Below, piece by piece: positions 22,233 through 38,888 of a stretch of 64,000 nt of DNA; the stretch's first letter is position 1; each line of letters starts with the position of its first letter. The notes under the pieces were generated by a model. That model was given only the letters and a program-made list of their open reading frames with translations. It was not told where the DNA came from and did not search any database. Both the position numbers and the translations under genes were made by a program. The stretch comes from an uncultured Verrucomicrobia subdivision 3 bacterium (lineage in GTDB: Bacteria; Verrucomicrobiota; Verrucomicrobiia; Limisphaerales; UBA11358): assembly GCA_903918885.1 (NCBI GenBank), contig CAIXFY010000050.1:1-64000 (forward strand), given 5' to 3'.

Positions 22233-22245
22233 GGGCAAAAGCAAG

Positions 22246-25200
22246 TCACGGGTTGAACAGCGCGCGATAAAAGCGGCGCTGAAAATTGGTTGTCTCGGTG
22301 TCAGACCAGAGCAGCGGCGAGACGGAGAGGTTGGTGGAAAAGACGTTCGTCCAATTGATGAGATTCGTCGAAGCTTGCACAATGTAAGTCTGGCCGGTCG
22401 TGCCGACGATGGAAAATTGCACGCAACCGCCGGTCAGCATCGTGCCCGCCAACACTGGCGGCGGATTGGTCGGTGCGGGAATACTGTAGCTGTAGGCCAC
22501 CATGCGGTTGGTTTTGCCGACGCCCTCGTCCGCCGGACGGTAGGAGCGCACATAATCCACAATGGCATTGGTCGGAGAGATGGTGACGCGCAGATGGCCG
22601 GAGCTGCCGTAGAGGACGCCGTTGGTGTAGTTGTAATTTGGGTCGGTCGCGGAATTGACCGAGTTATACGGGTAGTGACTCGGCTGCGGCACTTCCTGAT
22701 AGATGAAGTCCGGGTTGCCGTTGGTGTTGCCGCTCGCGAAATAATCCTGCTTCACATACAGGTGGTCGTGGCCGTGGAAAAAGACCTGCGCCCGATTGGT
22801 GATAAGCAAATCGCGAATGGGCATGGGCCAGCCGGGGCGGTGTGCGGCAAAACCCGGCGTGCCGTTGGTGTTCAAACCGCCCCACTCGAAGTAAGGTGAA
22901 AATTCCAGTCCGCCGCGTGCGGTCGAGTCAAAGCTGCCGCCGATGAGGTGGTGGGCGAAGATGAATTTGAATTTTGCGGTGCTGGTTTCGAGCGTGGACT
23001 TGAGCCAGAAATATTGATTCGTGCCAAGCGTCCACGCCCATGGGTCTTTGGATTTGCTGACGCCTTGGTTGCTATACCAGAACGGGTCGAGCACGACGAA
23101 CAGCGCATCGCCCCACTCGAAGGCGTAGTAGCCGTCGCGCGGATCTTGCTGGTAGGCATCGGTGTTGGTCGCGCCGGAATAAAATCCGCCAGGAACCGGG
23201 CAGGGATAATACAGTTCGCGCGCGCTGGCGGCCCACACCGGCGGGTTGGTGTGCGGCGAAGTGTTGTCCAGCCACCAGCCCAATTCCGGATCGTGATTGC
23301 CGTCCACAAGAAACAGCGGAACGGAGTGTCCGGAGATGTTGAAGAACTGGTTGCGGACGGCGGCGCACGCGTCGATGATGCCCGGCTGCGTCATCGTGTA
23401 AGGATTGGTGGACGCATATTTTTCGCCCATGAACGTGTCGCCGAGATCGATTAAAAAATCCGGCTGGTCGGCAAGGACATTGGTGAGCGTTTGTTGCCAG
23501 ATGGAAGGAACTGTGCCGGGGTTGTCGTTGTAATGCGGGTCGGCCTCGATGTCGAAAGTGAACGTGCTGCCGCGCGCGCGTTGCGTGGCAAACGTGCGTT
23601 CCGCTCCGGCGCTGAAAGGCGCGCTGCCGTTGGTTGAAAAGCGCAGACGGTAAAAAAATTTCTGGTTGCCCTGAAGCTGGTTGAAGATGAACGCCGTGGG
23701 GACGGTGGCCGCGACGAGATTTGTCGTGGTCTGGTTCGTGTAAATGCCCGATTGCGTGCCGCACTCCAGATAGGCTTGCAGGTCGTTGCTCGCGAGAACG
23801 CTCACGGCGATGGAGCTGGCGGTGGGGCGACCGAGCAACACGTCATACGCGGTGAAGATGTTTGTGTCAGCAACCCCGCTGGCGTTCGTGACAGTGAGAA
23901 CGGCGGGCAGGCTGTTCGTGCTCGTGGGCCAATTGACAGCCTTGTCGGTCACCACCACGTCGTAGGTTGCAGCGTCGGTTGCGGAGATATTGGTCAGGTC
24001 GAGCCGGGTAAGATAAACGCTCGTATCCACCGTCGTGTAGTTTGTGGCCGTGAGAATGTTCGTTCCGTTTTTCCGCCACTGAACGGAGAACTGCTTGGGA
24101 TACACCGTGGTCATCGCCCAGAATGTCACATTGCTGCCCGCCGCCACGGTCTGGCTTTGCGGATGCACGCCGATATAGGGCGGATAGGCTTCCGCCGTGA
24201 TGTTTCCGTAATCCGCCGTCAACGTCGCCACGACGTTCGAGTAGGCAGGCACGTTGATCAGGTCCGTCGTCTCGTAAGGATCGGCGATGATGTCGAACAG
24301 CAAGTTGGTGAAAGCGTTGGCCGAAATCTTGTCGCGGATGAGCTTGAACATCGTGAGGCTCGGGCCGTTGCTGAACACGTCGAACACGCCGCTGCCGCCG
24401 CTGCTGCCGGAAACGAGCGGCACGCCGCGATAGTTCGTGGGATTGAACGCGCCGTTTGTCGCCGTGAGCAGCAACGGCCACATGTTCACGCCGTCGAAGG
24501 GCTTCGGGTTCAGCGGCGTCACGCCCACCGCCGCGCAGATGGTCGGAAACCAGTCGCCCACCCAGACGAATTGCTGGCAGTTCGTCACGCCCGCTGGCAG
24601 CACGCCCGGCCAGCGGATCGCCGCCGGGGTGTGGATGCCGCCGTCATACAAATCGCCCTTCGTGCCACGCAGCGGCGTGTTCAGCGAGCCGACCGCGTTG
24701 TCGCCGCCGTTGTCGCCGAAATAAACCACCAGCGTGTTCGTCGTAATGCCTTCGCTGTCGAGCGCGGCGAGCACGCGACCGAGCGCGACGTCTTCCTGAT
24801 CAATTGCCGCGTCAAGCGTGCGCCGCGTCGTGTCGGCAATGCCCGTGTATTTGCTGATGAAATTGGTCGCCGCGCTCACCGGGCCGTGAACGGCGTTGAA
24901 CGCGAGATACAGAATCACCGGCTTCGACGGGTCGCGCTGTTGCAGCAGTTGCACGGCCTTGTCCGCCAGCAAATCGGAAGACCAGCCCGCGTCCAGATTC
25001 GTCTGGCCGTTCAGCCACCAATCCAACAGGCCGTTGTCCTGACTGATGTGCGTGAAATAATTGATCGCGCCGGTGTATTGTCCGTAGTGGATGTCCCAGC
25101 CGCGATTCTGCGGCTGGTAATCAGTATTTTCGCGGATGACCGGGTAGCTAACGCCGTTAATGACGGTGTTGGAAGCGGTGTTGTAAAGCCCGCCGAGATG

Positions 25201-25848
25201 CCATTTGCCACACATGAACGTCTGATAGCCCGCCGCCTTGAACGTGACCGGCATGAGGTGTTCGTGCAAATCAAGCCCGTGGGAATTGTTGACGCCGGTG
25301 CGGATGGGGTTGCGCCCGGTCATCAACGTCGAACGCGTGACGCTGCAAACCGGCGTGGGATAAAATCGTTCCAGCCGGATGCCTTCGCTGCCGATCCGAT
25401 CCATGTTCGGCGTGGGCATCTCCGCGCCGTGACAGCTCAAATCGTGATAACCCTGATCGTCGGTGACGATGATGAGGACGTTCGGCTTGAGCGAGCGGAC
25501 GAATACCGTGAACGACTGCGTCGCGCTCAAGTTCGGTGAGCCGTTGTCGGTGACGACAACGCTGAAGAAGTTTGACGTGCCGGAATTATTCGTGGTCGTC
25601 AGCCACGCGATTACGCCGGTGTTCGTGTTGATTGTCGCTCCGCCGGGCGCGGTTAGAAGGCTGAAGGTGAGTTGCTGCGCGGGAACGTCCGCGTCGCTCG
25701 CGACGTTGGTGACGGAAAGAGTTTCGCCGCCGTTGAGGACGCGATTGGTCAGCGCCGACAAGGTGGGCGGCGTGTTGGTCGCCTCGGCGCGGAAAATTCC
25801 GGCGCAGAGAACGGCCAGCCAAATCCAGTTGTTAAAAAACTTCGGCAT
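22246..25848 (-). CDS. Secreted sulfatase / purple acid phosphatase-like fusion
   Basis: A 1200-residue exported protein combining two hydrolases. Order: signal peptide (1-23), cadherin/Ig-like domain (about 25-118), type I sulfatase domain (about 121-540, with VTDDQGYHDL, GKWHLGG and VYFGDNGGDN), Ig-like domain (about 555-655), FnIII-like domain (about 665-765), metallophosphoesterase (about 770-1090, with ADPHYND, LGDTFM, DGNHDP, AHHLIG, HGHDHLY), and a C-terminal beta domain ending RRFYRALFNP. The sulfatase active-site motif is C168-S-V-T-R instead of the usual C-x-P/A-x-R, so formylglycine formation is uncertain. It starts 3 bases after the upstream gene's stop. Joint action on sulfated and phosphorylated substrates is inferred only from domain content. 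Confidence 0.88.
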   Translation of the reverse strand: MPKFFNNWIWLAVLCAGIFRAEATNTPPTLSALTNRVLNGGETLSVTNVASDADVPAQQLTFSLLTAPGGATINTNTGVIAWLTTTNNSGTSNFFSVVVTDNGSPNLSATQSFTVFVRSLKPNVLIIVTDDQGYHDLSCHGAEMPTPNMDRIGSEGIRLERFYPTPVCSVTRSTLMTGRNPIRTGVNNSHGLDLHEHLMPVTFKAAGYQTFMCGKWHLGGLYNTASNTVINGVSYPVIRENTDYQPQNRGWDIHYGQYTGAINYFTHISQDNGLLDWWLNGQTNLDAGWSSDLLADKAVQLLQQRDPSKPVILYLAFNAVHGPVSAATNFISKYTGIADTTRRTLDAAIDQEDVALGRVLAALDSEGITTNTLVVYFGDNGGDNAVGSLNTPLRGTKGDLYDGGIHTPAAIRWPGVLPAGVTNCQQFVWVGDWFPTICAAVGVTPLNPKPFDGVNMWPLLLTATNGAFNPTNYRGVPLVSGSSGGSGVFDVFSNGPSLTMFKLIRDKISANAFTNLLFDIIADPYETTDLINVPAYSNVVATLTADYGNITAEAYPPYIGVHPQSQTVAAGSNVTFWAMTTVYPKQFSVQWRKNGTNILTATNYTTVDTSVYLTRLDLTNISATDAATYDVVVTDKAVNWPTSTNSLPAVLTVTNASGVADTNIFTAYDVLLGRPTASSIAVSVLASNDLQAYLECGTQSGIYTNQTTTNLVAATVPTAFIFNQLQGNQKFFYRLRFSTNGSAPFSAGAERTFATQRARGSTFTFDIEADPHYNDNPGTVPSIWQQTLTNVLADQPDFLIDLGDTFMGEKYASTNPYTMTQPGIIDACAAVRNQFFNISGHSVPLFLVDGNHDPELGWWLDNTSPHTNPPVWAASARELYYPCPVPGGFYSGATNTDAYQQDPRDGYYAFEWGDALFVVLDPFWYSNQGVSKSKDPWAWTLGTNQYFWLKSTLETSTAKFKFIFAHHLIGGSFDSTARGGLEFSPYFEWGGLNTNGTPGFAAHRPGWPMPIRDLLITNRAQVFFHGHDHLYVKQDYFASGNTNGNPDFIYQEVPQPSHYPYNSVNSATDPNYNYTNGVLYGSSGHLRVTISPTNAIVDYVRSYRPADEGVGKTNRMVAYSYSIPAPTNPPPVLAGTMLTGGCVQFSIVGTTGQTYIVQASTNLINWTNVFSTNLSVSPLLWSDTETTNFQRRFYRALFNP

Positions 25849-25851
25849 AAA

Positions 25852-28800
25852 TTATCTCGTCGCTTTGACCCGATAGAATAGGTTCGAGCCAGTGTTTCCG
25901 CCGGTGTGGATGACCGTGTTGGTGATCGTGGTCGGCGGCGTGTTGGTAAAGACGGCAGTCCATTGGCCAGAGGCAAGCGAGGACGAGCATTCGAGATATT
26001 GCCACGCGTTGTTGCCGCCGATCCAAGTCAAGTTGATGTTGCCGCCGGCGACTTGCAGGCCGGTGATGGCCAGGCGCGACGCGGCGTTCGTCGGGTTCAG
26101 GTCGGCAATATAATTTTGCAGCGTGGTACTGCCGTTGGCGTTGATGAAGCTCGCGACGGACGCCAGCGTGGGATCGAAGCCGTAGCGCAACGCCCAGCCG
26201 TCGGGGATGCCATTGTTCGCAGACGACCACGCGGTGGGATCGAGGCCGTAGCTGAATTCCTGAAGGTCGGTCAGGCCGTCGCCGTCGTCGTCGCTGGTGG
26301 CGGTGACGGCGGAGAGCGAGCCGAAGTGCGAACGCACCCAAACATCCGGAAGGCCAAGCCCAACCGTGTCGGTAGCCGCGCCGGTGTAAGTTTCAATCGT
26401 TCCGCGCGGCGTCAAATCCTTGCCGGCAAAGCCACTGAAGTTGGTCGCATAGCGGTGAACTTTGAAAACTTCGTTGAGTGTCTGTAACGGAAAGTTGGTG
26501 TTGCTGTTTGGGTCGAACGGGACGGTCGTGCCTTGCGCTAGCGGCGTGGTTGTGATGGGGTTGATATATTTCCAGACAGTTTGCGCGTTGCTGTTGACTT
26601 CAAACAGCGTGCCGCGAATTCCGAAAGTGATGAGCGTGTCGCCGTTCGGTTCGCGTTCCACGCCGCCGATGTCCGCACCAAAGAAATTCGTCGCAGGATT
26701 GTTGGTGTATTGCCAAAAATAACTCGTCGGCCCGAAATAGGTGTTGCCGACACGCGAATAAAAGCCGTTCGCATCCACCGGCGGGACAATTTCGTCAATC
26801 GAAGTGTAAGCCGGATTAGCGCGATTGATTCCGTTGTCGTGAATCAAAATGTGGCCCGCGCCGGGACAGTTAGTCGGAATCCAGGTCGCGCAGTGTTGTT
26901 GCCAGAGCATTTCCTTGTGCGTCGCGTCGGTGAGATTGTTGATGGCCGGATTGCCCCAGCGATACAGTAAATCACCGCCTTTACCGTAACGACCGCCAGT
27001 GTGGCCGGCGGCTTGCGCAGTGGTGGTGCCATGGTCAATCACCCAAATCTCGCACTGGTTGCGTGAGCTGATGAGAATTTGGTCAAGCTGCGGATTGTAA
27101 TCAATGCCATTGAAGTGATTCCAGAACTGCTGGAGCGGACCGCTATTGGCGTTGATCAGTTCAATGTGATTGCTCGGCACGCCGTAGTTGGCCTTGGTCA
27201 CGTCGTTGCTCTGAACGAGGTGATCCCAGACATGCCATTGCCAGACGATTGTGCCGTTGGTCGTGCCATTTTTTGCAGCGGGCTGCACTTCAATAACGGC
27301 GTCGGGCAGCAAGAAACCGCCGTTGGTGGTCACGCTGATTTGCGTTTGTGAATTCGTCTGAAAACCGGCAGCGAGAACATCCGCCAAAGGCTTCTCCTCA
27401 CACATGATCATCAGCAAATTGCCGTTTGGCAAAAGCGCGATGTCGTGATGGCTCAGGTTCGTGATCGTGTTCTGCTCGTAGCACCAGACCAGATTGTTTT
27501 GCCAATCGCGTTCCTCCACTCGACCGCCTTCGCCGCCGCCGGTGTTGAGCAGAGCTTGCCCGCCCAAGGAACAGGTCCGCAACAAGTGGCCGTTCGGCAT
27601 CAAGTATTCCGACCGGCCCGGATTGTAGGTGGTCGTCCACTTGTGGACATATTGGCCGCTGTTGTTGATTAGATAAGTGGTGTTGGCCTGCATCGGCGAG
27701 AACAGCGTGTAACCGGATTGCACGCCGGAAAGATTGGTGAAAAGCCCCACCGTCTGCGAAAGCTTTTCCTGCCGCATCACGCGGAAACCTGTTTGACTCC
27801 AATCGCCGTAAGGATCGCCAGGCGGACCGCCGCCGAGAAAATAAGACGGGTCGCGATTCGACACACGAGCGTGGCCGTAATCGTAGTCGCTCGCGGAATT
27901 GCCGTTCCACCAAGTGCCGCCGCGCAGACAGCGGTAGGGCGCGCCGTTCGTGCTGGTGGGAAACAAATCCGCGTTCGCCAGCACTGGGCCGGGCGGATTC
28001 GTCACGATGTTGTTGTTCGTGCAGTAGGCGTAGTAGGCGTTTTGATACCAGTCGTTGCACCATTCCCAGACGTTGCCGCCCATGTCGTAAAGGCCGTAGG
28101 GATTCGAGCCGTCGCTGGTCTGGTAAGTCGTCTGGCTTGCCGGCCAGTTGTAATCCGACTTGAGCCGTAGCGCGCCGTTGTAGAAACCGACGGGCGTTGT
28201 GCATGGGTAATCGTTCGTCGTCTCGAACGGGTCGCCGGAGTTCTGCCAGTTGGCGAAGCTGCCATCGTAATTCGTGTTCATGCCCCACGGGAACATGACG
28301 TAGGGATTCGTCTGGCCGCCGTGCGCGGCGTATTCCCATTCAGCCTCGGTCGGCAAACGAAAACCGTTCTTCGTGAAATCCACGTCGCCGTTGGTGAGAT
28401 TGTAGCACGAATCGAAACCGTTCGTCTGGCTCAACCAGTTGCAATATGCAATCGCGCCGAACCACCGCACACTCGTAGCCGGATGCAGATCGCGGCTGTT
28501 CAGGACGGTGAAAGAGTTGTTCAGAAACTGGATGCGGCTGGAGGACGACGCATCGCGCGTGTAGAAAAACACATTCGTCCCGCCGACGGCATAAACGATG
28601 TTCGTGCGCACCTCAATCAAACCCTGTGCCAGCGCGCTGTTCAGATAGTCGCAATACTCGCGGCAGGTAACGAGCGTCGTGGACATATAGAGCGGCGAGA
28701 TATAGACGTTGTGAACGGGGATTTCGTCCGTGTAGTGCTTGAGGTCAATGTATTCGAACTGGTCGCCCATGAGAAAATTACCGCCGGGAATGCGGACATA

Positions 28801-29409
28801 TTGTGCGCTGAACGGGATGACGACATTCGACGTGCCGATGGTGGTCGTGAGCGTGATCTGATCGAGCCAGACATGGGCGTTCGCCTGCCCGCCGGCGAAC
28901 TGGAATTGTAGGAACAGATTGCTGACGAGGTCGGCAGGCGGGAGCGCGTAGGTATAGCTGCGCCAGGTGTGATTCGTGCCGTTCGTCTCATTGAGCCGCG
29001 TCGTGAAACCCGCGCCGTTGTTGAGCAGCAGCGCCCAGCCGCCGTTGTTCGTCAGGCCAGTGGTGTTGATGTAAAAAGTCAGCGTCGCGCTGTCACCGCG
29101 CGCATCAATGCCCGCCGCCGTGGTGATGAAACTGTCCGTCAGATTCGTCGTGCCAACCTTAAATGAAAGTCCATTAGTATTGCCACTACCGTAGTTGGCG
29201 TTGGCGTTTTGCTCGAATGGGTTACTGTAACCATTTGTGAAAACCGTCCAGGCATAGTTGCAACCGCCGCCCGCCCATGGTTTGACTGTGTTGGTTGCCA
29301 TTGTTTCTTGAAACCCCACCACATTCGTCGTCGCCGCACAAGCTTGCCGGTCCCCTAACCAGACAAAAACCAGCATGGTCGACAAGATGAGATGGATGGA
29401 ACGTTTCAC
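25852..29409 (-). CDS. Secreted fusion of FGE-like and arylsulfotransferase-like domains
   Basis: An 1185-residue exported protein. The start is GTG at 29409, overlapping the previous stop as GTGA and giving the signal peptide VKRSIHLILSTMLVFVWLGD; the longer open frame upstream is non-homologous. Domains: a beta-rich N-terminal region (about 30-195), a formylglycine-generating-enzyme/SUMF1 fold (about 204-547; GGNFLMGDQ, RLPTEAEWEYAAHGG, DMGGNVWEWCNDWY, RCLRGGTWW), an arylsulfotransferase-like propeller (about 555-985; HHDIALLPNGNLLMI), a TSP3-like calcium segment (DDDGDGLTDLQEF) and a C-terminal beta domain. After RGGTWW the two catalytic cysteines of true FGEs are absent, so the first domain is probably not a sulfatase-activating enzyme. 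The sulfatase gene follows directly. Confidence 0.85.
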   Translation of the reverse strand: MKRSIHLILSTMLVFVWLGDRQACAATTNVVGFQETMATNTVKPWAGGGCNYAWTVFTNGYSNPFEQNANANYGSGNTNGLSFKVGTTNLTDSFITTAAGIDARGDSATLTFYINTTGLTNNGGWALLLNNGAGFTTRLNETNGTNHTWRSYTYALPPADLVSNLFLQFQFAGGQANAHVWLDQITLTTTIGTSNVVIPFSAQYVRIPGGNFLMGDQFEYIDLKHYTDEIPVHNVYISPLYMSTTLVTCREYCDYLNSALAQGLIEVRTNIVYAVGGTNVFFYTRDASSSSRIQFLNNSFTVLNSRDLHPATSVRWFGAIAYCNWLSQTNGFDSCYNLTNGDVDFTKNGFRLPTEAEWEYAAHGGQTNPYVMFPWGMNTNYDGSFANWQNSGDPFETTNDYPCTTPVGFYNGALRLKSDYNWPASQTTYQTSDGSNPYGLYDMGGNVWEWCNDWYQNAYYAYCTNNNIVTNPPGPVLANADLFPTSTNGAPYRCLRGGTWWNGNSASDYDYGHARVSNRDPSYFLGGGPPGDPYGDWSQTGFRVMRQEKLSQTVGLFTNLSGVQSGYTLFSPMQANTTYLINNSGQYVHKWTTTYNPGRSEYLMPNGHLLRTCSLGGQALLNTGGGEGGRVEERDWQNNLVWCYEQNTITNLSHHDIALLPNGNLLMIMCEEKPLADVLAAGFQTNSQTQISVTTNGGFLLPDAVIEVQPAAKNGTTNGTIVWQWHVWDHLVQSNDVTKANYGVPSNHIELINANSGPLQQFWNHFNGIDYNPQLDQILISSRNQCEIWVIDHGTTTAQAAGHTGGRYGKGGDLLYRWGNPAINNLTDATHKEMLWQQHCATWIPTNCPGAGHILIHDNGINRANPAYTSIDEIVPPVDANGFYSRVGNTYFGPTSYFWQYTNNPATNFFGADIGGVEREPNGDTLITFGIRGTLFEVNSNAQTVWKYINPITTTPLAQGTTVPFDPNSNTNFPLQTLNEVFKVHRYATNFSGFAGKDLTPRGTIETYTGAATDTVGLGLPDVWVRSHFGSLSAVTATSDDDGDGLTDLQEFSYGLDPTAWSSANNGIPDGWALRYGFDPTLASVASFINANGSTTLQNYIADLNPTNAASRLAITGLQVAGGNINLTWIGGNNAWQYLECSSSLASGQWTAVFTNTPPTTITNTVIHTGGNTGSNLFYRVKATR

Positions 29410-31073
29410 GGTTGATGAGAATGATTGCCTTCGGGTAGGTTGCCCTTCGGTAAATCCATTTCGCTGGCAATCATCCTCGTTCGGTCGTAAGTGAACTTCA
29501 ACGCGGAGCTGTCGAGCACAAGTTCTTTCATGGCGGTGAGCAAAACATTGCGGCTGACGGCTGACGGCGGCAAGGAAATTTTCACCGGCGCAGACAGCGC
29601 ATAAACAGTGATAAAATATGTTTTCGTGCCCGGCCCTTTCGAGTGCGGCGGCGCGTATCCGAGATTGCGATTGACGCTGTTGTTGCCCGCGACACCGATG
29701 CTGGTGGCATTTTTTGCGAGGCTGTGGACGCTCGCGGGAATGTTGTAGAGCGTCCAATACCACTTCACATCGCCCGGGCCGGGAAAGTGATCCATGATGA
29801 CCGCGAAATATTTTGTGCCCGCCGGCGCACCGCTCCATTCGAGCGGCGGCGAAGCGCTCGCGCCATCGCCGGTGAATTCCACCGGCAACGCGCCGCCATT
29901 TGTCACCACCGAACTTGTCAGTAGAAAAGTGCCGCTGTGCTTAGCGTTAATCATCACCGGAGCTACAGCCGCTGGCTGATCGCGGCGTGGCTGATCGCGT
30001 TGAGCATCCGGCGGAGGACGCTGACCTTTGAGATCATTTTGCGGCGGTGGATTTTTTTCGTGGTCAGGTCGAAAATTTGTCGGATATGTTTTCGTCGTCT
30101 TCTGGCCGGACGCGTCGGTGAAATCAAACCTCACCGCGCCAGCCTCTGCGCCGTAGTGCAACGTTACCGGCTGGCCGTTGAGTGTGTAAGTCAGCGTGTA
30201 GCTTTTCCCATCCGCCTCGGTTTTGAAATCCGTGATGACTGCACCGCGTAACGGCGTCGTGGCCGGCCGCACGGGTTGTGCGCGTGGTTGAGGGTCGACT
30301 TGTCCGTCGCGCTCCGTGACTGTGCCGTGGAAACCGCCGTTGACGTAAGGATATTTTGTCGAGGCGTGATAATGATAGCCCAGCAGCTTCGTGGTGTGGC
30401 CGTCAAAAGCATCCAAATCGTTTGGGCGTGTGCCATCCGGATCGGCCAGTCCGTAAATCGGATAACCATCCAGCGCGAATGCGATAGGGTTGTTCGAGCC
30501 GATATATTGCTGCAAATGCAGCGGCGCGGCGTGATAATGATAATCATCCGCCCGACCCGCGTGGCCGCCAAAGTGGTCGAGTTCGCCGATTTCAGCGGAG
30601 ATTTCGCCGCGATTGTTCTGGGGATTGAAAATGGGAATGCCGTTCACAGCAATGGCAATGGCTCCGCGCAGGAAATTATTTTTGATGCTTTGCGGTTCCG
30701 TGGCTGGAACCGGATTCAGTGGAAACCGCCAGGCATTATCCCCCGTGTAATTTTGCGGCAGCGGCACCTGTTGCTGCCAGGCGGTGATACCCGTCATCAT
30801 CTGATCCGAAACCATTCCATCCGACTCGACATAGAAAAACCTGTTGTCCCAGTGCGTCCGAACATTGTTGGCAAACGGGGCAAACGCCGTGGCGATGGAG
30901 GCACCACGGTTCGTTGTGTCTGGGGTTAAGTGCAGAAGGATATTGGTTGGTGGCGTTATGCTGGGATTGTAATGTGCGGTCAATCCGTCATGCGCAGGGT
31001 TGCCGGTGAGGTGGGCGGTGCATGTGGTAGAGGCAAATATCCCCAAACACAAAACCACTAGGTTTTTTATCAT
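29406..31073 (-). CDS. Secreted YHYH-domain / PEBP-like fusion protein
   Basis: A 555-residue exported protein. The start at 31073 gives signal peptide MIKNLVVLCLGIFASTTCTA; an upstream in-frame Met lies in the spacer. The N-terminal half is a YHYH domain with two His-rich motifs, DYHYHAAP (about 177-184) and GYHYHAS (about 232-238), and FALDGYPIYG between them. A Pro/Arg/Gln-rich linker (about 345-385) leads to a phosphatidylethanolamine-binding-protein domain of the YbhB/YbcL type (about 390-540; SPPLEWSGAPAGTKYFAVIM and DHFPGPGDVKWYWTLYNIP). The YHYH family has no established function; clustered His and Tyr suggest metal binding. The stop overlaps the next start by 4 bases. Confidence 0.82.
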   Translation of the reverse strand: MIKNLVVLCLGIFASTTCTAHLTGNPAHDGLTAHYNPSITPPTNILLHLTPDTTNRGASIATAFAPFANNVRTHWDNRFFYVESDGMVSDQMMTGITAWQQQVPLPQNYTGDNAWRFPLNPVPATEPQSIKNNFLRGAIAIAVNGIPIFNPQNNRGEISAEIGELDHFGGHAGRADDYHYHAAPLHLQQYIGSNNPIAFALDGYPIYGLADPDGTRPNDLDAFDGHTTKLLGYHYHASTKYPYVNGGFHGTVTERDGQVDPQPRAQPVRPATTPLRGAVITDFKTEADGKSYTLTYTLNGQPVTLHYGAEAGAVRFDFTDASGQKTTKTYPTNFRPDHEKNPPPQNDLKGQRPPPDAQRDQPRRDQPAAVAPVMINAKHSGTFLLTSSVVTNGGALPVEFTGDGASASPPLEWSGAPAGTKYFAVIMDHFPGPGDVKWYWTLYNIPASVHSLAKNATSIGVAGNNSVNRNLGYAPPHSKGPGTKTYFITVYALSAPVKISLPPSAVSRNVLLTAMKELVLDSSALKFTYDRTRMIASEMDLPKGNLPEGNHSHQP

Positions 31074-31116
31074 AAAAAAAGCATGGTAACTTTGAACATT
31101 CCAATGGATAAAAAAT

Positions 31117-32919
31117 CTACGGCGCATTATTTTTAAACTGCGCATCGGTCAAAGTATTCAAGAACGCCACCAGCGCCCGCTTGTCCGCCGCGCTCAACGG
31201 CACGCCGCCGTCGGGATGCTTGGCGAGATTCGGGTCGAGCGTCGCACTGCGTTTCAAACCAGTTGCGTAATGTTCAACGACTGCTTCCAGCGTTTGGAAA
31301 CGGCCGTCGTGCATATATGGAGCGGTCAGCGCCACATTGCGTAGCGACGGCGTGGCGAATTTTCCATCATCTGATTTCTTGCCGGTAATTTTGCCGCGAC
31401 CCAAATCGGCGAAAGTATCATCCAGTCCGTTGTTGGCGAAACTCTGGCTTTGGAACAATGGGCCGCCGTGGCAATGAAAACAGTCCGCGCCGAATTGTCC
31501 GCGACGCGGATCGTATTCGGTGGAGAACAGTTCAAACCCGCGCTGTTCCTCCGGCGTGAATTTCCCCTCGCCGCGCAGCACGCGGTCGAACTTGGCGTCG
31601 AAAGAGGTGAGCGTGAGTAGATAATTTTCCAGTGCGAGTGAAATCTTTTCCGCCGTGATCTCCGGCGAGCCGAAGGCAGTTGTGAAGAGTGCGGGGTAAT
31701 CATTGGTGGGGCGCGTCACTCCGTGCGCGCCGTCGGCGGGCAGGGGACTGCCCGCCCTACCTGTTGTCAGTTTCACAACCAAATTCGTCAGCGCCTCGTG
31801 CATCTCAATCGGATTTTGAATCGGCTGCAATACCTGTTCGCGCAGACTTTTCGCGCGGCCATCCCAGAAAAATTCCTTCTTCCACGCGAGATTGAATAGC
31901 GGCATGGAATTGCGTTCGCCGAATTTTCCCTCCGCGCCGCGCGCCGTTTTGCGTCCGTCGGTAAAGGCTTTGGCCGGCGCGTGACAGTCGGCGCAGGATT
32001 GCTGGTCGTTGATGGACAGGCGTGGGTCGAGGAATAGTTTTTTGCCCAGCTCCACGCGTTCGACGAGCAGCGGGTTGTCGCGCGGCAAGTCGGGAATCGG
32101 AAAGGTCGCGCTCATCTGAAATTCATACGGTGTAAATTTCGTTGGCAAGAAAAGTGGTTTTGGATGGGCAACAGCGATTTCCGTTTCGCTTAACTGTGTG
32201 ATGCGGTGAACGCGGAACGCGCCCGCCAGATTTCTCACCAACGCGGCGGAAATCGGGTCGCCGTCGCGCGAGTGTGTGGACGAACCGTCCTTGCCAAACG
32301 ACAGCGGACGCGGCGCGTTCAGCAAGGTTGCCAAATCAAAATCCAGTTCCAGCTTGGTTTCATTTGTGATTTGTAGCGATGCGGCCAGCGTGACGCAAAC
32401 GGCGTTGGTATCGCGCGCCAGATGATACGCCCAGCCGTCGAGTTCGCCGGTGGCGTTGCGCCACAAACCTTCGAGCGCGAGAAAAATAAATCCGCCCTGC
32501 CAGCTCCAATGCAATCCGTTCAGATTCGGGTTCAGTGGATGCGCGGCGGGAAACTTGGCTACATCCGCGTGGTTCAAATTGGTGTTCAGGCCGACGAGAA
32601 AACGGAGCGAGCGATATTCGCCGGCCGGAATTTCCAGCCGCTTGGAGTCGCGATTCTGCTCGTAATCAAACCACGCGACGGAATTGGAAAGTTCCAGCCA
32701 CGAACCGTCGTTGCGTTGCAAAGCGAAATCGCTGGCAAGCCAGCTCACGCGCGTCACGGAAAAGGTTTCGCCCGCCGAAGTCTGATAGCGCAGCGACGCG
32801 GGCTGAAGATTTTCGCCGGAAACTTTCGGCGTGATTTGAAGTTGCAGCGTGGCGGCGGAAGCCGGATTGACCGCGCACAAGCCGGTGAGCCATAAAATAA
32901 TTTTCCGCGCCAGCTTCAT
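31117..32919 (-). CDS. MbnP-like copper protein fused to MbnH-like diheme cytochrome c peroxidase
   Basis: A 600-residue exported protein, start at 32919 overlapping the previous stop (ATGA), signal peptide MKLARKIILWLTGLCAVNPA. Residues about 23-240 match the MbnP family (VSWLASDFALQRNDGSWLEL; LNGLHWSWQGGFIFLALEG). Residues about 270-600 are a diheme peroxidase of the MauG/MbnH type with two heme-c sites, CADCH (309-313) and CFHCH (480-484), and the PYMHDGRF segment. In methanobactin clusters these are separate partners, the diheme enzyme oxidising a Trp of MbnP to create a copper site; here both are one chain. Residues about 388-405 look like an in-frame repeat insertion. Confidence 0.85.
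   Translation of the reverse strand: MKLARKIILWLTGLCAVNPASAATLQLQITPKVSGENLQPASLRYQTSAGETFSVTRVSWLASDFALQRNDGSWLELSNSVAWFDYEQNRDSKRLEIPAGEYRSLRFLVGLNTNLNHADVAKFPAAHPLNPNLNGLHWSWQGGFIFLALEGLWRNATGELDGWAYHLARDTNAVCVTLAASLQITNETKLELDFDLATLLNAPRPLSFGKDGSSTHSRDGDPISAALVRNLAGAFRVHRITQLSETEIAVAHPKPLFLPTKFTPYEFQMSATFPIPDLPRDNPLLVERVELGKKLFLDPRLSINDQQSCADCHAPAKAFTDGRKTARGAEGKFGERNSMPLFNLAWKKEFFWDGRAKSLREQVLQPIQNPIEMHEALTNLVVKLTTGRAGSPLPADGAHGVTRPTNDYPALFTTAFGSPEITAEKISLALENYLLTLTSFDAKFDRVLRGEGKFTPEEQRGFELFSTEYDPRRGQFGADCFHCHGGPLFQSQSFANNGLDDTFADLGRGKITGKKSDDGKFATPSLRNVALTAPYMHDGRFQTLEAVVEHYATGLKRSATLDPNLAKHPDGGVPLSAADKRALVAFLNTLTDAQFKNNAP
31735..31756. repeat. Palindromic repeat inside the MbnP-MbnH fusion gene
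   Basis: GGCGGGCAG and CTGCCCGCC form a perfect 9-bp stem with a GGGA loop. On the coding strand it sits in a stretch encoding RAGSPLPADGAHGVTRPT, low-complexity residues between two conserved peroxidase blocks (residues about 388-405). The reading frame is kept. Confidence 0.7.
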
Positions 32920-34199
32920 CTGGAATCGTAGCCGCCATTGCCGGCATTCCAAGAGATTGTCGTTGTTTTGGCGGTGGCGGTTTTGAGGTTGGTAACGGGA
33001 TGCGCCAGAAAATTGGTCGTCACCGGTTCGTGAACGCCAGTGACGAGACAGCCAATCGGATAGCCATGAAAGCGCCGGCCCATGTTGTAAGGATAAACGG
33101 GTTGGCCGTTGACATCAATCGTGGTGAAGTAAGCATAAGTTCCCTGCGGAAATTCCGGCGTGACGCACCAGCGGCCGTTGAGCTCATCGAGGTCGAAATC
33201 TTTGCCCAAAGTTTTCCCGCAGTCGCCGACATACGCGTAGTCCTCGATGTAATGACCGAGCGGATATTTTTCGCTGACATTTGGCCCGGTTTGAAAATCT
33301 GGCAGCACGGCGGAACGATTTTGTTCGCGCGCTTCCCAAGTGGGTAAAGTGCGGCGACCGGTTTGTGCGAGATTGTCGGTGCCGTTCTCGCCGTTGCGCA
33401 AAGCGAAACCAGAAATCATTCGGCGCACGCCGCTGGCAGGATTGGTGGGGTTGGAAAAACCATAAGGCCCGTAAACCGGATAGCCGTCCTGCATCCAGCC
33501 GAGAATCGGCGAATGCTTGGTCGGCGCGCTGGAACTTTCGCGGTAAGTTTTTGTCGCGGAATCAAAATCCACATGGTCGCCGAGTTCGTAGCGCAGCGCG
33601 ATAGGTTCGACATGATAGTGATAAGTGCCGCGATTTTGCTGGTGCGCGAGCGCGGCGTCGAAAGTCCGACCCTCGTTCACCAGCGCGTCGCGGTTCCAAA
33701 CGCGGTCACCTTGGCCGATGCCGGCGCGCGGGCTGGCGTCCTGATGCTTTTGGTGCGAGTAGGAAAACGCATCACCAGCGTCGAACATCCGCACGCCATC
33801 CACGAACATTCCAATTTCGCCAAGGCGGTTGAAATTTTGCGTCGGCTGAACTTTCGGATGGCGCGGCAGCGCAAAAATAAAATGCTGATCCGTCGGCAGG
33901 TTAGGAAAAAATCCGTTCTGCCACGGCCCCATGATTTGGCTGCCGAGGCCGGTGCTGAAAACATAAATCCAGTTGGACGACGACATGATTTTTTGCACGC
34001 CGCAATACGCTGGCTGCGATTGCGTGTTGCGGCCGTTGCTCCAAGTCGTTTCGGTCTGGCCGGAATTTTTCTCCGCGACGGTGCGGTAGATTTGCGCGAA
34101 CCTGCCGGAGTCGAGCGTGAACCACGAAGTGATTTGCGGGTCAGCAAAAGCTTTTGTGCTCAGCACACAGAAAATTGCGGCGGAAAAAATAAATTTCAT
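32916..34199 (-). CDS. Secreted YHYH-family protein
   Basis: A 427-residue exported protein with signal peptide MKFIFSAAIFCVLSTKAFA; the start at 34199 is chosen over a 132-codon upstream extension that only mirrors the previous gene in another frame. It carries TYHYHVEP (YHYH at about 193-196), the preceding GPW and FVDGVRMFDAGDAFSY blocks, then HSPILGWMQDGYPVYGPYG and a Tyr/Cys-containing C-terminal half (CVTPEFPQGTYAYF). It aligns along its length with the central part of the upstream gene product, so the two are tandem paralogues. Function unknown; the His/Tyr cluster suggests metal or redox chemistry. The stop overlaps the next gene by 4 bases. Confidence 0.82.
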   Translation of the reverse strand: MKFIFSAAIFCVLSTKAFADPQITSWFTLDSGRFAQIYRTVAEKNSGQTETTWSNGRNTQSQPAYCGVQKIMSSSNWIYVFSTGLGSQIMGPWQNGFFPNLPTDQHFIFALPRHPKVQPTQNFNRLGEIGMFVDGVRMFDAGDAFSYSHQKHQDASPRAGIGQGDRVWNRDALVNEGRTFDAALAHQQNRGTYHYHVEPIALRYELGDHVDFDSATKTYRESSSAPTKHSPILGWMQDGYPVYGPYGFSNPTNPASGVRRMISGFALRNGENGTDNLAQTGRRTLPTWEAREQNRSAVLPDFQTGPNVSEKYPLGHYIEDYAYVGDCGKTLGKDFDLDELNGRWCVTPEFPQGTYAYFTTIDVNGQPVYPYNMGRRFHGYPIGCLVTGVHEPVTTNFLAHPVTNLKTATAKTTTISWNAGNGGYDSR

Positions 34200-34212
34200 G
34201 CAGTTGGCAAAG

Positions 34213-36546
34213 TTAATTGATGGTGAAATAACTCGTGAGCGTGTAAGGCGGTGGGCCGGAGTTGAAAGTGACGACAATCGTTTGTGCGCCGGTGGGCGTG
34301 TAGCCGGACGGAATCGTGAACAGCGCCACCACCGAGCCTTGCACCGTGTAGCTCGTGCTGATGGCGGTAATGCTGCCCACGGTGACGCTCGTGATGGGCG
34401 CACCGGCAGGCGGGGCGTTGGGCGGATAACTGCCGCCGGTTGGCAGCGTGATGGTGAGCAGCACGGATTGACCGCGATAGGCTGCGCCGCCGGGAGCGAC
34501 GGCGTTGGTGGCAAACAGCGTGGTGCCCGCGCTGTCGTAACTCGCCACGGATGTGCGTCCGGCGCGGTAAAATCGTTTGTCGAGCGCGCTGACATCGTCG
34601 AGATAAGTGCTGCCGGGGCCGTTCGTGGCGTAGGTGTTGATGGTGAGACCGCCGGCCAAAGAAGTCCACGAGGTCAAGTTCGTAGAGCCTTCGATTTGAT
34701 AACTGCCGCCGTCCACGCCCGTCCATTTGAGCGAGACAAGGCCACCGTTGATGTAAGTAGGCGTGTTCATCTTGCTTACGAGATTTGTGCCGCCAAGAAA
34801 ATTGGTGATCGCGTTTTCGGTGACGGAAATGGCGCTCACTGTGCCGCCGCTCGGCGTGCCGTAGTAGCCACGTCCGATGTTGTAGGGAAATGTCGGCGTG
34901 CCGTTGCTGCTGATGCTGACAAAGTAGGCGTAAGTGCCGTTGGGAAATTCCGGCGTGACGCAGTAGCGCCCGTTGTATTCGTCGAGGTCGTAGGTGTTCG
35001 TGCCGGGCGCGATGCCATGATCACCGAGATAATCGTTATCCTCCATGTAGCGGCCGAGAACATAAATGCCAGCGACATTCGGGCCGACTTGATTGGAGAC
35101 GACATTGAACAAGCGCGCCGACCACGCGGGAATGGTTTTGCGTCCGTTCGCCGTGAGATTGCTCGTGCCGAAAGTTCCGTTCCGCAAAATGTAGCCGGAA
35201 ATCATCCGTCGGATGCCGCTGCTGGCGTTGTTGGAAACGCCGTAACCGTAAGGTCCGTAAACCGGATAGCCGTCCGCCGTCCACGCGAGAATCGGCGAGT
35301 GCTTGGTCGGCGTGTTGGTGGACTCGGTATAAATTTTTGTCACGGAATTAAAATCCACATGGTCGCCGAGCTGGTAGCGCAGCGCGGGCGGATTAGCGTG
35401 ATAATGATATTGTCCGCCCGCCTGATGCGCGTTGTTCGGGTCGAAGCTCGCGCCTTCGTTCACATACGCGTCGCGGTTCCAATAGCCGGTGATGTTCTGC
35501 GCGTCCACATTGGAAACCGTGCTGTAAGAATACGCGTCCCAACTGTTGAACATCGCCGCGCCGTCCACGAAATATCCAATTGGCCCACCGCCGCTCGCGG
35601 TTTTTGTCGTCGGCACGGACGGGCTGCGCGGAATGCGATACATAGTTTTCTGGTTCACCGGCCAGTTCGGAAACGGCTGCGTGTGCTGCGCATTTAGATA
35701 CCACGGCCCCATCACAAAACTGCCCAGCCCCGTGCTGCGGATGTAAACCCAGTTGCTGGAGGAATATATTTCCTGCACGCCGCAATATGCGGGCAGCGAC
35801 TGGATGGTCGTCCCGTTCGTCCACGCTGTCATGGAAACTCCGTTTGTGCGCGACAAATCATTGGTGTAGATGCGCGCGTATTGGCCGGCGTAGGTGGTGA
35901 ACCACGAGTTTGTGCGCGGGTCGGCGGGTAAATTGGTCGCCGTGGTCGTGAACGATGCGTTCAGCACGATGTTCTGGCTGGGCGCGGGCACATCGGTCAA
36001 TTGGAAACTGGAAGTGCTCGTGTTCGTCAATTGCGCGGAATAATTCGCGCCGTTCAGCGAAGCGGTGGTCGCGTCCAGCGCCTGAATTATTTCCGTGCTC
36101 GTTGAATACGGAATGTTTTTCGAGGCGGTCGCGGACGAATTCCAGTTCAAGTTGCCGCCGCCATCCACCGGCCGCACGCCCAATCCGGCGATGCCAAACC
36201 GGACCGAACTCGTCGTCACGCCGCTGGACACGGACACCAACGATGCGGTCAAAGTCACGCCGTATCCATAAACAATCAGATTGCCATTCACGCTGACGCG
36301 CGTGTCGCCATCAAGGATGGAAAATGTCGCCGCCGCGCCGCCGGCATACGGCGACATCGTGACCGCGATGACGACATTCTGGCCGGACGCCGAATCGGTG
36401 AAGGTGTAGTTCTTCGTGAGATTCGTCGCGAGCGAGACGATGGAATCGTAATTGGTGACGCTCGCGGCCTTGGTGTTTTGCGCCAGCGCGGAAAATGCCA
36501 GCACGGTCAGGATCAGAATTTTTTTGAATCGGGTGTTGGTTTTCAT
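34213..36546 (-). CDS. Secreted multidomain YHYH-family protein, first gene of the string
   Basis: A 777-residue exported protein: signal peptide MKTNTRFKKILILTVLAFSA, a Ser/Thr/Asn-rich beta domain (about 30-205), the YHYH domain (about 210-600, motif QYHYHANP with YHYH at about 380-383, then HSPILAWTADGYPVYGPYG and CVTPEFPNGTYAYF), and a C-terminal beta region (about 610-777) resembling Ig/FnIII modules. The YHYH part is a close paralogue of the next gene. It is first in an eight-gene string, 13 bases before the second gene; a candidate regulator box lies about 30 bases upstream. Function unknown. Confidence 0.82.
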   Translation of the reverse strand: MKTNTRFKKILILTVLAFSALAQNTKAASVTNYDSIVSLATNLTKNYTFTDSASGQNVVIAVTMSPYAGGAAATFSILDGDTRVSVNGNLIVYGYGVTLTASLVSVSSGVTTSSVRFGIAGLGVRPVDGGGNLNWNSSATASKNIPYSTSTEIIQALDATTASLNGANYSAQLTNTSTSSFQLTDVPAPSQNIVLNASFTTTATNLPADPRTNSWFTTYAGQYARIYTNDLSRTNGVSMTAWTNGTTIQSLPAYCGVQEIYSSSNWVYIRSTGLGSFVMGPWYLNAQHTQPFPNWPVNQKTMYRIPRSPSVPTTKTASGGGPIGYFVDGAAMFNSWDAYSYSTVSNVDAQNITGYWNRDAYVNEGASFDPNNAHQAGGQYHYHANPPALRYQLGDHVDFNSVTKIYTESTNTPTKHSPILAWTADGYPVYGPYGYGVSNNASSGIRRMISGYILRNGTFGTSNLTANGRKTIPAWSARLFNVVSNQVGPNVAGIYVLGRYMEDNDYLGDHGIAPGTNTYDLDEYNGRYCVTPEFPNGTYAYFVSISSNGTPTFPYNIGRGYYGTPSGGTVSAISVTENAITNFLGGTNLVSKMNTPTYINGGLVSLKWTGVDGGSYQIEGSTNLTSWTSLAGGLTINTYATNGPGSTYLDDVSALDKRFYRAGRTSVASYDSAGTTLFATNAVAPGGAAYRGQSVLLTITLPTGGSYPPNAPPAGAPITSVTVGSITAISTSYTVQGSVVALFTIPSGYTPTGAQTIVVTFNSGPPPYTLTSYFTIN

Positions 36547-36714: not shown

Positions 36715-37365
36715 ATGAGAATTCTCATCGTCGAAGACGAACCCGATTTGCTCGCGAGCCTCGCGCAGGCGTTGCGCGAGGAAGGCTACGCCGTGGACAC
36801 CGCCGACAACGGCGACGACGGCCTCTTCAACGCCGAAGGCACGGACTACGACGCGATTGTTTTGGATGTCATGTTGCCCGGCATGGATGGCTGGGAGGTT
36901 TTGAAGCGCCTTCGCAAAACCAAAAAAACTCCAGTCCTCATGCTCACCGCGCGCGATCAGACGCGCGACCGCGTGAAAGGCCTCGACACCGGCGCGGATG
37001 ATTACGTCGTCAAGCCGTTTGACCTCGATGAAGTGTTCGCCCGCCTCCGCGCCATCATCCGCCGCAGCGCGAACAAGACCACCAACATAATTGAAATCGG
37101 CGATGTCAAAGTTGATGCCGCCGCGCGCATCGTTTCGCTCAAGAACAAACCGGTCGAACTCACGGCGCGCGAGTATTCGCTGGTGGAATTCATGGCGCTG
37201 CATCGCGGCGAAGTGGTTACACGCACGCAGCTTTACGAGCATCTGTTCGACGAGAACGAAGATTCGTTTTCCAACCTGCTCGATGTGCATGTTTCCAACG
37301 TCCGCAAAAAACTCGGCGCGGAATTCATTGCCACCCGGCGCGGCCATGGCTATTGCATCGAATGA
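36715..37365 (+). CDS. OmpR-family response regulator
   Basis: A 216-residue DNA-binding response regulator. The receiver has the acidic cluster in VEDEPD, phospho-acceptor Asp51 in IVLDVMLPGMDGWEVLK, LTARDQ with the conserved Thr, and KPFDLDE with the Lys. The C-terminal winged helix (about 125-216) has PVELTAREYSLVEFMALHRG and VSNVRKKLGAEFIATRRGHG, the OmpR/PhoB signature, most like the metal- and polymyxin-responsive CusR/PmrA type. It overlaps the kinase gene by 4 bases (ATGA). The direct-repeat boxes nearby have the layout this class binds, so it is the probable regulator of the divergent eight-gene string. Confidence 0.93.
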   Translation: MRILIVEDEPDLLASLAQALREEGYAVDTADNGDDGLFNAEGTDYDAIVLDVMLPGMDGWEVLKRLRKTKKTPVLMLTARDQTRDRVKGLDTGADDYVVKPFDLDEVFARLRAIIRRSANKTTNIIEIGDVKVDAAARIVSLKNKPVELTAREYSLVEFMALHRGEVVTRTQLYEHLFDENEDSFSNLLDVHVSNVRKKLGAEFIATRRGHGYCIE

Positions 37366-38888
37366 AGATTTTCAAATCCATCAAGTGGCGTTTGCAACTC
37401 TGGTATGGCCTGATTCTTGTCGTTGTGCTGGCGGGGTTTGGTTTCACGGCCTATCAACTTCAGCGCAACCGGCAGTTTCGCCAGGTTGACGACGGGATTC
37501 ACCAGCGCATCGGCATTCTCGCGAACAATCTGCACCGCCCGCCGCTGCGTCCGGGCAATGGCGACGGCAGCGGTGTTAATCAGTTTGGTAACCGCCAACC
37601 GCCGGAAGACCAGTTTCCGCAGGATCAGTTTTCCAATGACCGTCCGCCGCAATTCCAGCGTCGTTCGCAGGTGTTCCATCTCGCGCCAGAGAACGCCCGG
37701 CTGTTTGACACAAATGACATCAATGGTTTCTTTTTCCGCATCAGTCGGCTTGTGGAAAACGACCGCACCATCATCGCGCAATCGGAAAACTATCGGCAAC
37801 CGCAGCCGGTTTTGGAATACGACCATTACTTTGATCAATTGAACCACTTCGATTTTCCGGACAGAAAAAAACTGGTTTCGCCGAAAACCATTGCTGCGGG
37901 TGATGACCAGATTGTCATTGAAACATTGCCATCGGGCGAAGCGATTGAAGTCGGCTGCTCACTCAAGCCCATGCGCGCGGAACTCCGCAACGCCGCGTTG
38001 CACCTCGCGGGCGTGGGCGGACTAATTTTACTTGTGGGCTTGTTCGGCGGCTGGTGGTTTGTCGGTCGCGCGCTCCGGCCGATTTCGGAAATCAGCGCTA
38101 CGGCGGTGAAAATTTCCGCCGGCGATTTGTCGCAACGGATTTCCGCCGCCGAAACTGAAAGCGAACTCGGCCAGCTTGCGGCGGTTTTGAATTCCACCTT
38201 CGCGCGCTTGGAAACCGCATTCGCCCAGCAGAAACAATTCGCGTCCGATGCGGCGCACGAACTCCGCACGCCAGTCACGGTGATTCTCACGCAGACGCAG
38301 ACCGCGTTGAACCGCGAGCGCGACGCCGCCAGCTACAAGCAGACCGTTGAAGCTTGTCAGCGCGCGGCGCAGCGGATGCGTAAACTCATCGAATCGCTGC
38401 TTGCGCTGGCCCGGTTTGACGCTGGGCAGGAAGTCTTGCGCCGGACAGATTTTGATTTTTCTGAAACCATTGCCGACTGCGCGGAGCTGGTGCAACCGCT
38501 CGCGGACGAGCGCGCGGTGAAAATTTCCGTTGCTGTCGAACCCGTTAAAATCACGGGCGATGCCGAACGCCTTGCCCAAGTCGTCACCAATTTGCTCACC
38601 AACGCGATTCAATACAACCAGCCCGCCGGCGAAGTGCGCGTGCAACTGGCATCGCAAAATGGTCTGGCCGTGCTGACCGTGACGGATACGGGGCAGGGGA
38701 TTGCCCCCGCCGATTTGCCGTTGGTGTTCGGCAGATTTTATCGCGCCGACCAGTCGCGCACGGGTGCCAGCAATGCCGGTCTTGGCCTTGCCATTACCAA
38801 AGCCATCGTCGAGGCGCACGGCGGGACGATTGAAGTGGCGAGCGAAGAAAATGCCGGGACAACTTTTACCGTGCGGCTGCCCATTTGA
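37362..38888 (+). CDS. Sensor histidine kinase, heavy-metal-sensor-like layout
   Basis: A 508-residue inner-membrane kinase. The start is the ATG overlapping the regulator stop; three upstream codons in frame are ignored. Layout: membrane helix (about 11-31), a periplasmic domain of about 180 residues rich in Pro, Gln, Asn and Arg early on and His/Tyr/Asp later (EYDHYFDQLNHFDFPD), second helix (about 212-235), HAMP, dimerisation domain with the phosphorylated His in SDAAHELRTPVTVI, and an ATPase domain with NLLTNAIQYN (N box), DTGQGIAP (G1), FGRFYR (F box) and GLGLAI (G2). The ligand is unknown; the CusS-like architecture and metal-type targets make a metal ion plausible. Confidence 0.92.
   Translation: MKIFKSIKWRLQLWYGLILVVVLAGFGFTAYQLQRNRQFRQVDDGIHQRIGILANNLHRPPLRPGNGDGSGVNQFGNRQPPEDQFPQDQFSNDRPPQFQRRSQVFHLAPENARLFDTNDINGFFFRISRLVENDRTIIAQSENYRQPQPVLEYDHYFDQLNHFDFPDRKKLVSPKTIAAGDDQIVIETLPSGEAIEVGCSLKPMRAELRNAALHLAGVGGLILLVGLFGGWWFVGRALRPISEISATAVKISAGDLSQRISAAETESELGQLAAVLNSTFARLETAFAQQKQFASDAAHELRTPVTVILTQTQTALNRERDAASYKQTVEACQRAAQRMRKLIESLLALARFDAGQEVLRRTDFDFSETIADCAELVQPLADERAVKISVAVEPVKITGDAERLAQVVTNLLTNAIQYNQPAGEVRVQLASQNGLAVLTVTDTGQGIAPADLPLVFGRFYRADQSRTGASNAGLGLAITKAIVEAHGGTIEVASEENAGTTFTVRLPI

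Follow-up and report, generated by a model that had tools for sequence, protein, structure and literature searches.

Kynurenine copper sites are found in methanotrophs, where two proteins are needed to form them. There MbnH and MbnP are separate proteins, and the one acts on the other across chains; according to a 2021 PNAS study, MbnH reportedly turns the first Trp of the WxW motif of MbnP into kynurenine, and the copper in MbnP is said to lie near one His and one Met. In CorA, which has a MauG-like partner, the copper site is formed by two His and a kynurenine (PMC3912023). MbnP is not markedly similar to MopE or CorA in sequence (PMC3621798).

A gene joining MbnP and diheme domains

We analyzed a 64,000-nt stretch of DNA (the window) from an uncultured Verrucomicrobia subdivision 3 bacterium, whose genome assembly is 2.46 Mb and 91% complete. 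The original prediction for this locus was that MbnP and an MbnH-like diheme peroxidase are joined in one polypeptide. Both Pfam profiles matched a single frame far above their cut-offs, and the fusion was confirmed in full and proved to be more widespread than that prediction could tell.

The frame runs on the minus strand from an ATG at 32919 to a stop codon at 31117-31119, and its features are collected in Table 1. The motif LNGLHWSWQGG stands exactly at residues 133-143 of the translation, as predicted without mention of the strand, and the two CxxCH sites, CADCH (309-313) and CFHCH (480-484), likewise occupy the very positions given for them. The predicted signal peptide fits periplasmic attachment of c-type hemes. 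The linker between the two halves is nearly constant in length across the aligned fusions (mostly 58-60 aa). A scan for promoters and terminators gave signals at or under chance.

Table 1. Features of the fusion gene and its neighbors in the window.
Feature	Position	Strand	Basis
MbnP-MbnH-like fusion gene (P0001), 600 aa	31117..32919	-	translated frame; Pfam/NCBIfam profiles
Sec-type signal peptide, residues 1-23	32851..32919	-	read from sequence (MKLARKIILWLTGLCAVNPASA/A)
MbnP domain, residues 24-202	32314..32850	-	PF20243; fold match 7l6g
LNGLHWSWQGG motif, residues 133-143; W138, predicted kynurenine precursor, with H137 just before it	32491..32523	-	alignments
H166, predicted copper ligand	32422..32424	-	invariant in fused and separate MbnPs
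H216 of THS motif, predicted copper ligand	32272..32274	-	invariant in fusions
Linker, residues 222-280	32080..32256	-	alignments of fusions
Diheme MauG/MbnH-like domain, residues 281-600	31120..32079	-	PF03150; TIGR04039; fold match 6e1c
CADCH, first heme site, residues 309-313 (predicted peroxidatic 5c heme)	31981..31995	-	invariant
W352, inter-heme Trp	31864..31866	-	aligned with MauG/MbnH; invariant
E372, distal catalytic Glu	31804..31806	-	invariant; aligned with MauG/MbnH
CFHCH, second heme site, residues 480-484 (predicted 6c heme)	31468..31482	-	invariant
Y551, predicted Tyr ligand of 6c heme	31267..31269	-	invariant; aligned with Tyr of MauG and MbnH
LDPNLAKHP loop, residues 561-569, after Y551	31213..31239	-	alignments
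YHYH-domain protein, directly upstream, 4-nt overlap	32916..34595	-	PF14240, 147 bits
Second upstream YHYH-domain protein	34213..36546	-	PF14240, 124 bits
Downstream YHYH and PEBP-domain protein	29406..31145	-	PF14240; PF01161
Divergent OmpR-type response regulator	36715..37365	+	best model heavy-metal CopR/SilR, under cut-off
Divergent sensor kinase	37353..38888	+	best model heavy-metal CopS/SilS, 283.5 bits vs cut-off 292.6

Identity of the two halves

To the Pfam model of MbnP (PF20243), residues 24-202 matched with 104.5 bits against a cut-off of 27 (E=8e-30). A structural model of the MbnP part reached a pLDDT of 93.7, and its only significant match in the PDB was 7l6g, the MbnP of M. trichosporium (E ~1e-9). 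Assignment to another family had been named as a finding that would refute the predicted MbnP identity; instead, profile and fold both bore it out. Against the NCBIfam model of canonical MbnP (TIGR04052), the fusion scored 39.4 bits, below the cut-off of 140, while canonical controls scored 263 and 321 bits and the separate Deinococcus MbnP 85. Searching the PDB with the MbnP part as a single sequence returned no match, and a profile search returned one weak match (E=0.026); it was the fold search that decided the assignment. In alignments, the four-Cys motif with GCMSG of canonical MbnP is absent from the fusion, and a THS motif stands at that place.

For the C-terminal half, the CCP_MauG profile (PF03150) gave 175 bits against a cut-off of 25.6 (E=2e-51, residues 287-451). 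The NCBIfam model of MbnH (TIGR04039) scored 216.5 bits, under its cut-off of 362.85, yet it was the best-scoring model; the separate Deinococcus diheme protein was intermediate with 263 bits, and the model of MauG of TTQ biosynthesis (TIGR03791) gave 170 bits, well short of the 444 that it requires. AlphaFold2 modeled the whole chain with a pLDDT of 87.8 and a pTM of 0.83, and the best PDB match was the M. trichosporium MbnH (6e1c), which was also the best match by sequence. The halves' folds thus point to the two known M. trichosporium partners.

Residues expected of a MauG/MbnH-type enzyme were recovered by alignment. W352 falls at the position of MauG Trp93, E372 at that of Glu113 and Y551 at that of Tyr294. 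An ordinary unfused paralogue (L131) has a Met at the Y551 position. The predicted MauG/MbnH diheme type of this domain stood up: 6e1c came first in both the sequence and the fold comparison, and a Tyr ligand takes the place of the Met of ordinary peroxidases. The LDPNLAKHP loop is kept in the fusions and was absent from MbnH, MauG and the Deinococcus protein among the proteins compared; it is a possible contact to the MbnP domain.

Because both halves lie under the NCBIfam cut-offs for MbnH and MbnP and the Deinococcus proteins are intermediate, the sequences place the fusion in a fused sister family, neither MbnH nor MbnP in the strict sense.

Distribution and origin of the fusion

A search for the same fusion in other genomes had been suggested with the original prediction, and the fusion proved to be the rule in the class. 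By profile search, the MbnP domain occurs in 61 of 384 Verrucomicrobiia genomes, at 67 places, nearly all in frames of 563-814 aa; in a sample of the phylum it occurs in 22 of 388 genomes, again nearly always in frames of that length. Short frames in three genomes (G108, G506 and G593) are exceptions, as is an N-terminal MbnP fragment (L023) in a fourth (G121). This fragment adjoins a YHYH gene, and a transposase-like frame lies nearby; the fragment is probably what remains of a disrupted fusion gene.

Scanning genome contigs with the MbnP part alone yielded 431 relatives. The best 80 of these 431 were all from Verrucomicrobiota, the closest named ones belonging to Limisphaerales/subdivision 3; 76 of the 80 are fused and the other 4 stop at a contig end. 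Each of the 76 fused relatives hits both Pfam families, as does the window protein. An assembly or frame error joining two genes was ruled out, as the same fusion is present in many genomes, including those of the cultured Chthoniobacter flavus and Rubritalea marina. On the plasmids searched, no fusion was seen outside Verrucomicrobiota. In a literature search that covered neither domain-architecture databases nor the two key MbnH/MbnP papers, we found no description of an MbnP-MbnH fusion.

In a tree of diheme domains, 30 fused sequences formed one clade (support 100/99), apart from canonical MbnH (a small sample of three), MauG, the Deinococcus protein and unfused Verrucomicrobiota paralogues. 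The diheme halves are therefore consistent with a single origin, as judged from their sequences. Beside the fused clade branch unfused diheme proteins of Verrucomicrobiota of 460-530 aa with a long N-terminal extension (L135, L145, L146, L147, L148, L152 and L157).

The host genome contains one MbnP match and one CCP_MauG match, and since both lie within the fusion gene, no separate partner was found there.

A predicted copper site and its proposed maturation

Twenty-four fusions were gathered by profile and not by motif, so that the set is unbiased for the WxW motif. In it, W138, H127, H137, H166, H216, S217 and D221 are invariant (24/24), and W140 is present in 23 of 24. H127 is less strictly kept in a larger set of 77 fusions, which was gathered in part by the motif: 9 of them have another residue there. 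W138, W140 and H166 are invariant also in the separate MbnPs of Deinococcus, Methylocystis and Trichormus. H216 falls in the GCMSG region of canonical MbnP, where it was paired with the Met by MAFFT and placed within two residues of it by hhalign. One fusion (L022, genome G320) has the motif LHWDPQQGY, in which the first Trp of WxW is kept and the second is replaced by Pro; it offers a natural variant for the role of the second Trp.

Set against the His and Met of methanotroph MbnP and the two His of CorA, H166 and H216 would therefore give the fusion a copper site of the two-His type, as in MopE/CorA.

The best reading of the fusion, and one that we regard as fairly likely, is that its own Trp (W138) is oxidized to kynurenine and that copper is then bound; one polypeptide would let a single chain build its own copper site. 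The protein would be exported, and two c-type hemes would then be attached to its C-terminal domain. Peroxide, or oxygen and electrons, would take the diheme domain to a high-valent state that draws on the 5c heme with H313 and E372, on W352 between the hemes, and on the 6c heme with H484 and its Tyr ligand Y551. In this state the domain would oxidize W138 in the MbnP half of the same protein, turning it into kynurenine, and H166, H216 and the new kynurenine would together hold one copper ion. We infer the heme state, the oxidation of the Trp, the binding of copper and the action within one chain as opposed to between two copies. The physiological role that we infer is periplasmic or cell-surface copper handling, unrelated to methanobactin.

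We counted in favor of this mechanism the profiles and folds of both halves, the invariance of W138, H166, H216 and the heme-site residues, the Tyr at the 6c heme, the adjacent pair in D. radiodurans, the lack of any other MbnP or CCP_MauG match in the genome, the near-constant linker, the pTM of 0.83 and the heavy-metal-like divergent two-component system. Counted against it were the NCBIfam scores below cut-off, the position of the diheme half outside the canonical MbnH clade, the missing four-Cys motif and Met ligand region, the lack of a copper gene beside the fusion in the window beyond the sub-cut-off regulators and the lack of a CopC match in the genome.

Two other possibilities bear on these residues and on the arrangement of the domains. 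The diheme half could be an ordinary peroxide-removing peroxidase, and the MbnP half could serve structure or secretion and carry neither kynurenine nor copper. The wider CCP_MauG superfamily does include true peroxidases, and one of these, BthA, likewise has a Tyr as heme ligand (PMC6405878). However, the invariance of W138, H166 and H216 in the fusions and of W138, W140 and H166 in all MbnPs compared speaks against such a role, as do the Tyr at the 6c heme and the best match to MbnH by sequence and fold, and we consider it very improbable. Alternatively, the modification could take place between two copies in a head-to-tail dimer, the fusion merely setting a 1:1 ratio and co-export. Separate MbnH and MbnP work across chains, as this arrangement would. 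The pTM for the whole chain suggests that the two domains of the model have a defined mutual orientation, and this and the near-constant linker fit a set arrangement within one chain; a dimer is still compatible with them, and we regard modification between copies as quite unlikely.

Genomic surroundings and the YHYH proteins

The start codon of the fusion gene overlaps the stop codon of the upstream YHYH gene in the sequence ATGA, and the gene therefore looks translationally coupled. Three of the four YHYH genes of the host genome flank the fusion, on both sides. The downstream one combines its YHYH domain with a PEBP (phosphatidylethanolamine-binding) domain in a single polypeptide. In the phylum sample, YHYH was found in all 22 MbnP-bearing genomes compared to 48 of 388 overall (hypergeometric 6e-23, kinship ignored), and a YHYH gene lay within 4.2 kb of MbnP in 17 of the 22. 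After the fusion itself, the largest cluster of neighboring genes, which contains YHYH proteins, was present at 56 of 81 loci, in most cases immediately upstream of the fusion and on its strand; its members were joined by similarity and some are without the motif. YHYH domains have been called enigmatic, with a predicted His/Asp metal site (PMC7824862), and in the literature searched we found no description of a link between YHYH proteins and the fusion.

The main rival reading takes some other protein as the principal target of the fusion, the neighboring YHYH protein being the likeliest; the fusion's MbnP domain would then carry copper or serve for docking instead of being the main substrate. 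The co-occurrence and proximity of the genes, their overlap and the predicted metal site of YHYH domains all fit such a role. On the other hand, W138, H166 and H216 are invariant, as for a modified copper site, and the D. radiodurans MbnP/MbnH pair needs no YHYH gene. Moreover, co-occurrence is no proof of a reaction, and these genomes are related by descent. We consider a YHYH target unlikely. It could also be speculated that the fusion is a multi-cofactor oxidase, in which the matured kynurenine-copper domain would stay in electronic contact with both hemes and the whole unit would modify or metallate the co-encoded YHYH proteins. This is a rather improbable proposal; if true, the YHYH family, whose function is unknown, would take part in the handling of copper or in the oxidative maturation of proteins.

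Further downstream lie other multidomain frames on the minus strand. FGE-sulfatase (formylglycine-generating type) and arylsulfotransferase domains share one long frame at 25852-29838, and sulfatase, Ig-like and metallophosphoesterase domains share a 1200-aa frame at 22246-25848, which is adjoined by two further metallophosphoesterase-like genes at 19283-22382.

A link to methanobactin, which the original prediction had drawn, was not borne out: the 91% complete host genome contained no match to MbnB and its relatives (TIGR04159, PF05114), and a methanobactin context was ruled out. The same genome gave no match to CopC. Beside the fusion in the window, the regulator matches below cut-off were the only sign of copper genes.

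Oxidation of W138 within the fusion would extend this chemistry to another phylum and to a genome that has no methanobactin genes. Among solved structures, the closest ones show the partners as separate proteins; a lineage-wide fusion provides a single polypeptide in which heme-driven Trp oxidation could be studied at a fixed 1:1 stoichiometry, perhaps without a transient complex. In addition, the YHYH proteins of unknown function gain a strong genomic partner.

Comparison with known systems

The MbnP of M. trichosporium (7l6g; PF20243, TIGR04052) shares with the fusion its fold, the WxW motif, the H166 position and a diheme MauG-like enzyme as partner. In contrast, the protein described here is fused, is without the four-Cys motif, has His216 at the Met region of GCMSG and lies under the TIGR04052 cut-off, and its host genome is without methanobactin genes. 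The MbnH of the same species (6e1c; TIGR04039) likewise has two CxxCH sites and an aligned inter-heme Trp, Glu and Tyr ligand, whereas the diheme half here is fused to its partner, forms a separate clade, lies under the TIGR04039 cut-off and has its own LDPNLAKHP loop. MauG (TIGR03791) resembles the fusion in its diheme fold, its Tyr-ligated heme and its oxidation of a partner-protein Trp; its substrate is separate, however, and no mau genes were found in the stretches examined here.

A Deinococcus MbnP family protein and cytochrome-c peroxidase (L109 and L110) are encoded by two adjacent genes in the same order, MbnP and then diheme. This pair was the best match to both halves outside Verrucomicrobiota in the plasmid collection searched, and its MbnP matched that of the fusion by profile with E=1e-15. 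In D. radiodurans, genes of the CopC and CopD families come after the two separate genes, and no YHYH gene is listed at the locus.

MopE/SACCP and CorA/CorB of methanotrophs (PMC3912023, PMC3621798) also have a gene paired with a diheme peroxidase-like protein. They differ from the fusion in the placement of their His residues and in being separate polypeptides. The copper site predicted for the fusion is modeled on theirs, which consists of a kynurenine and two His.
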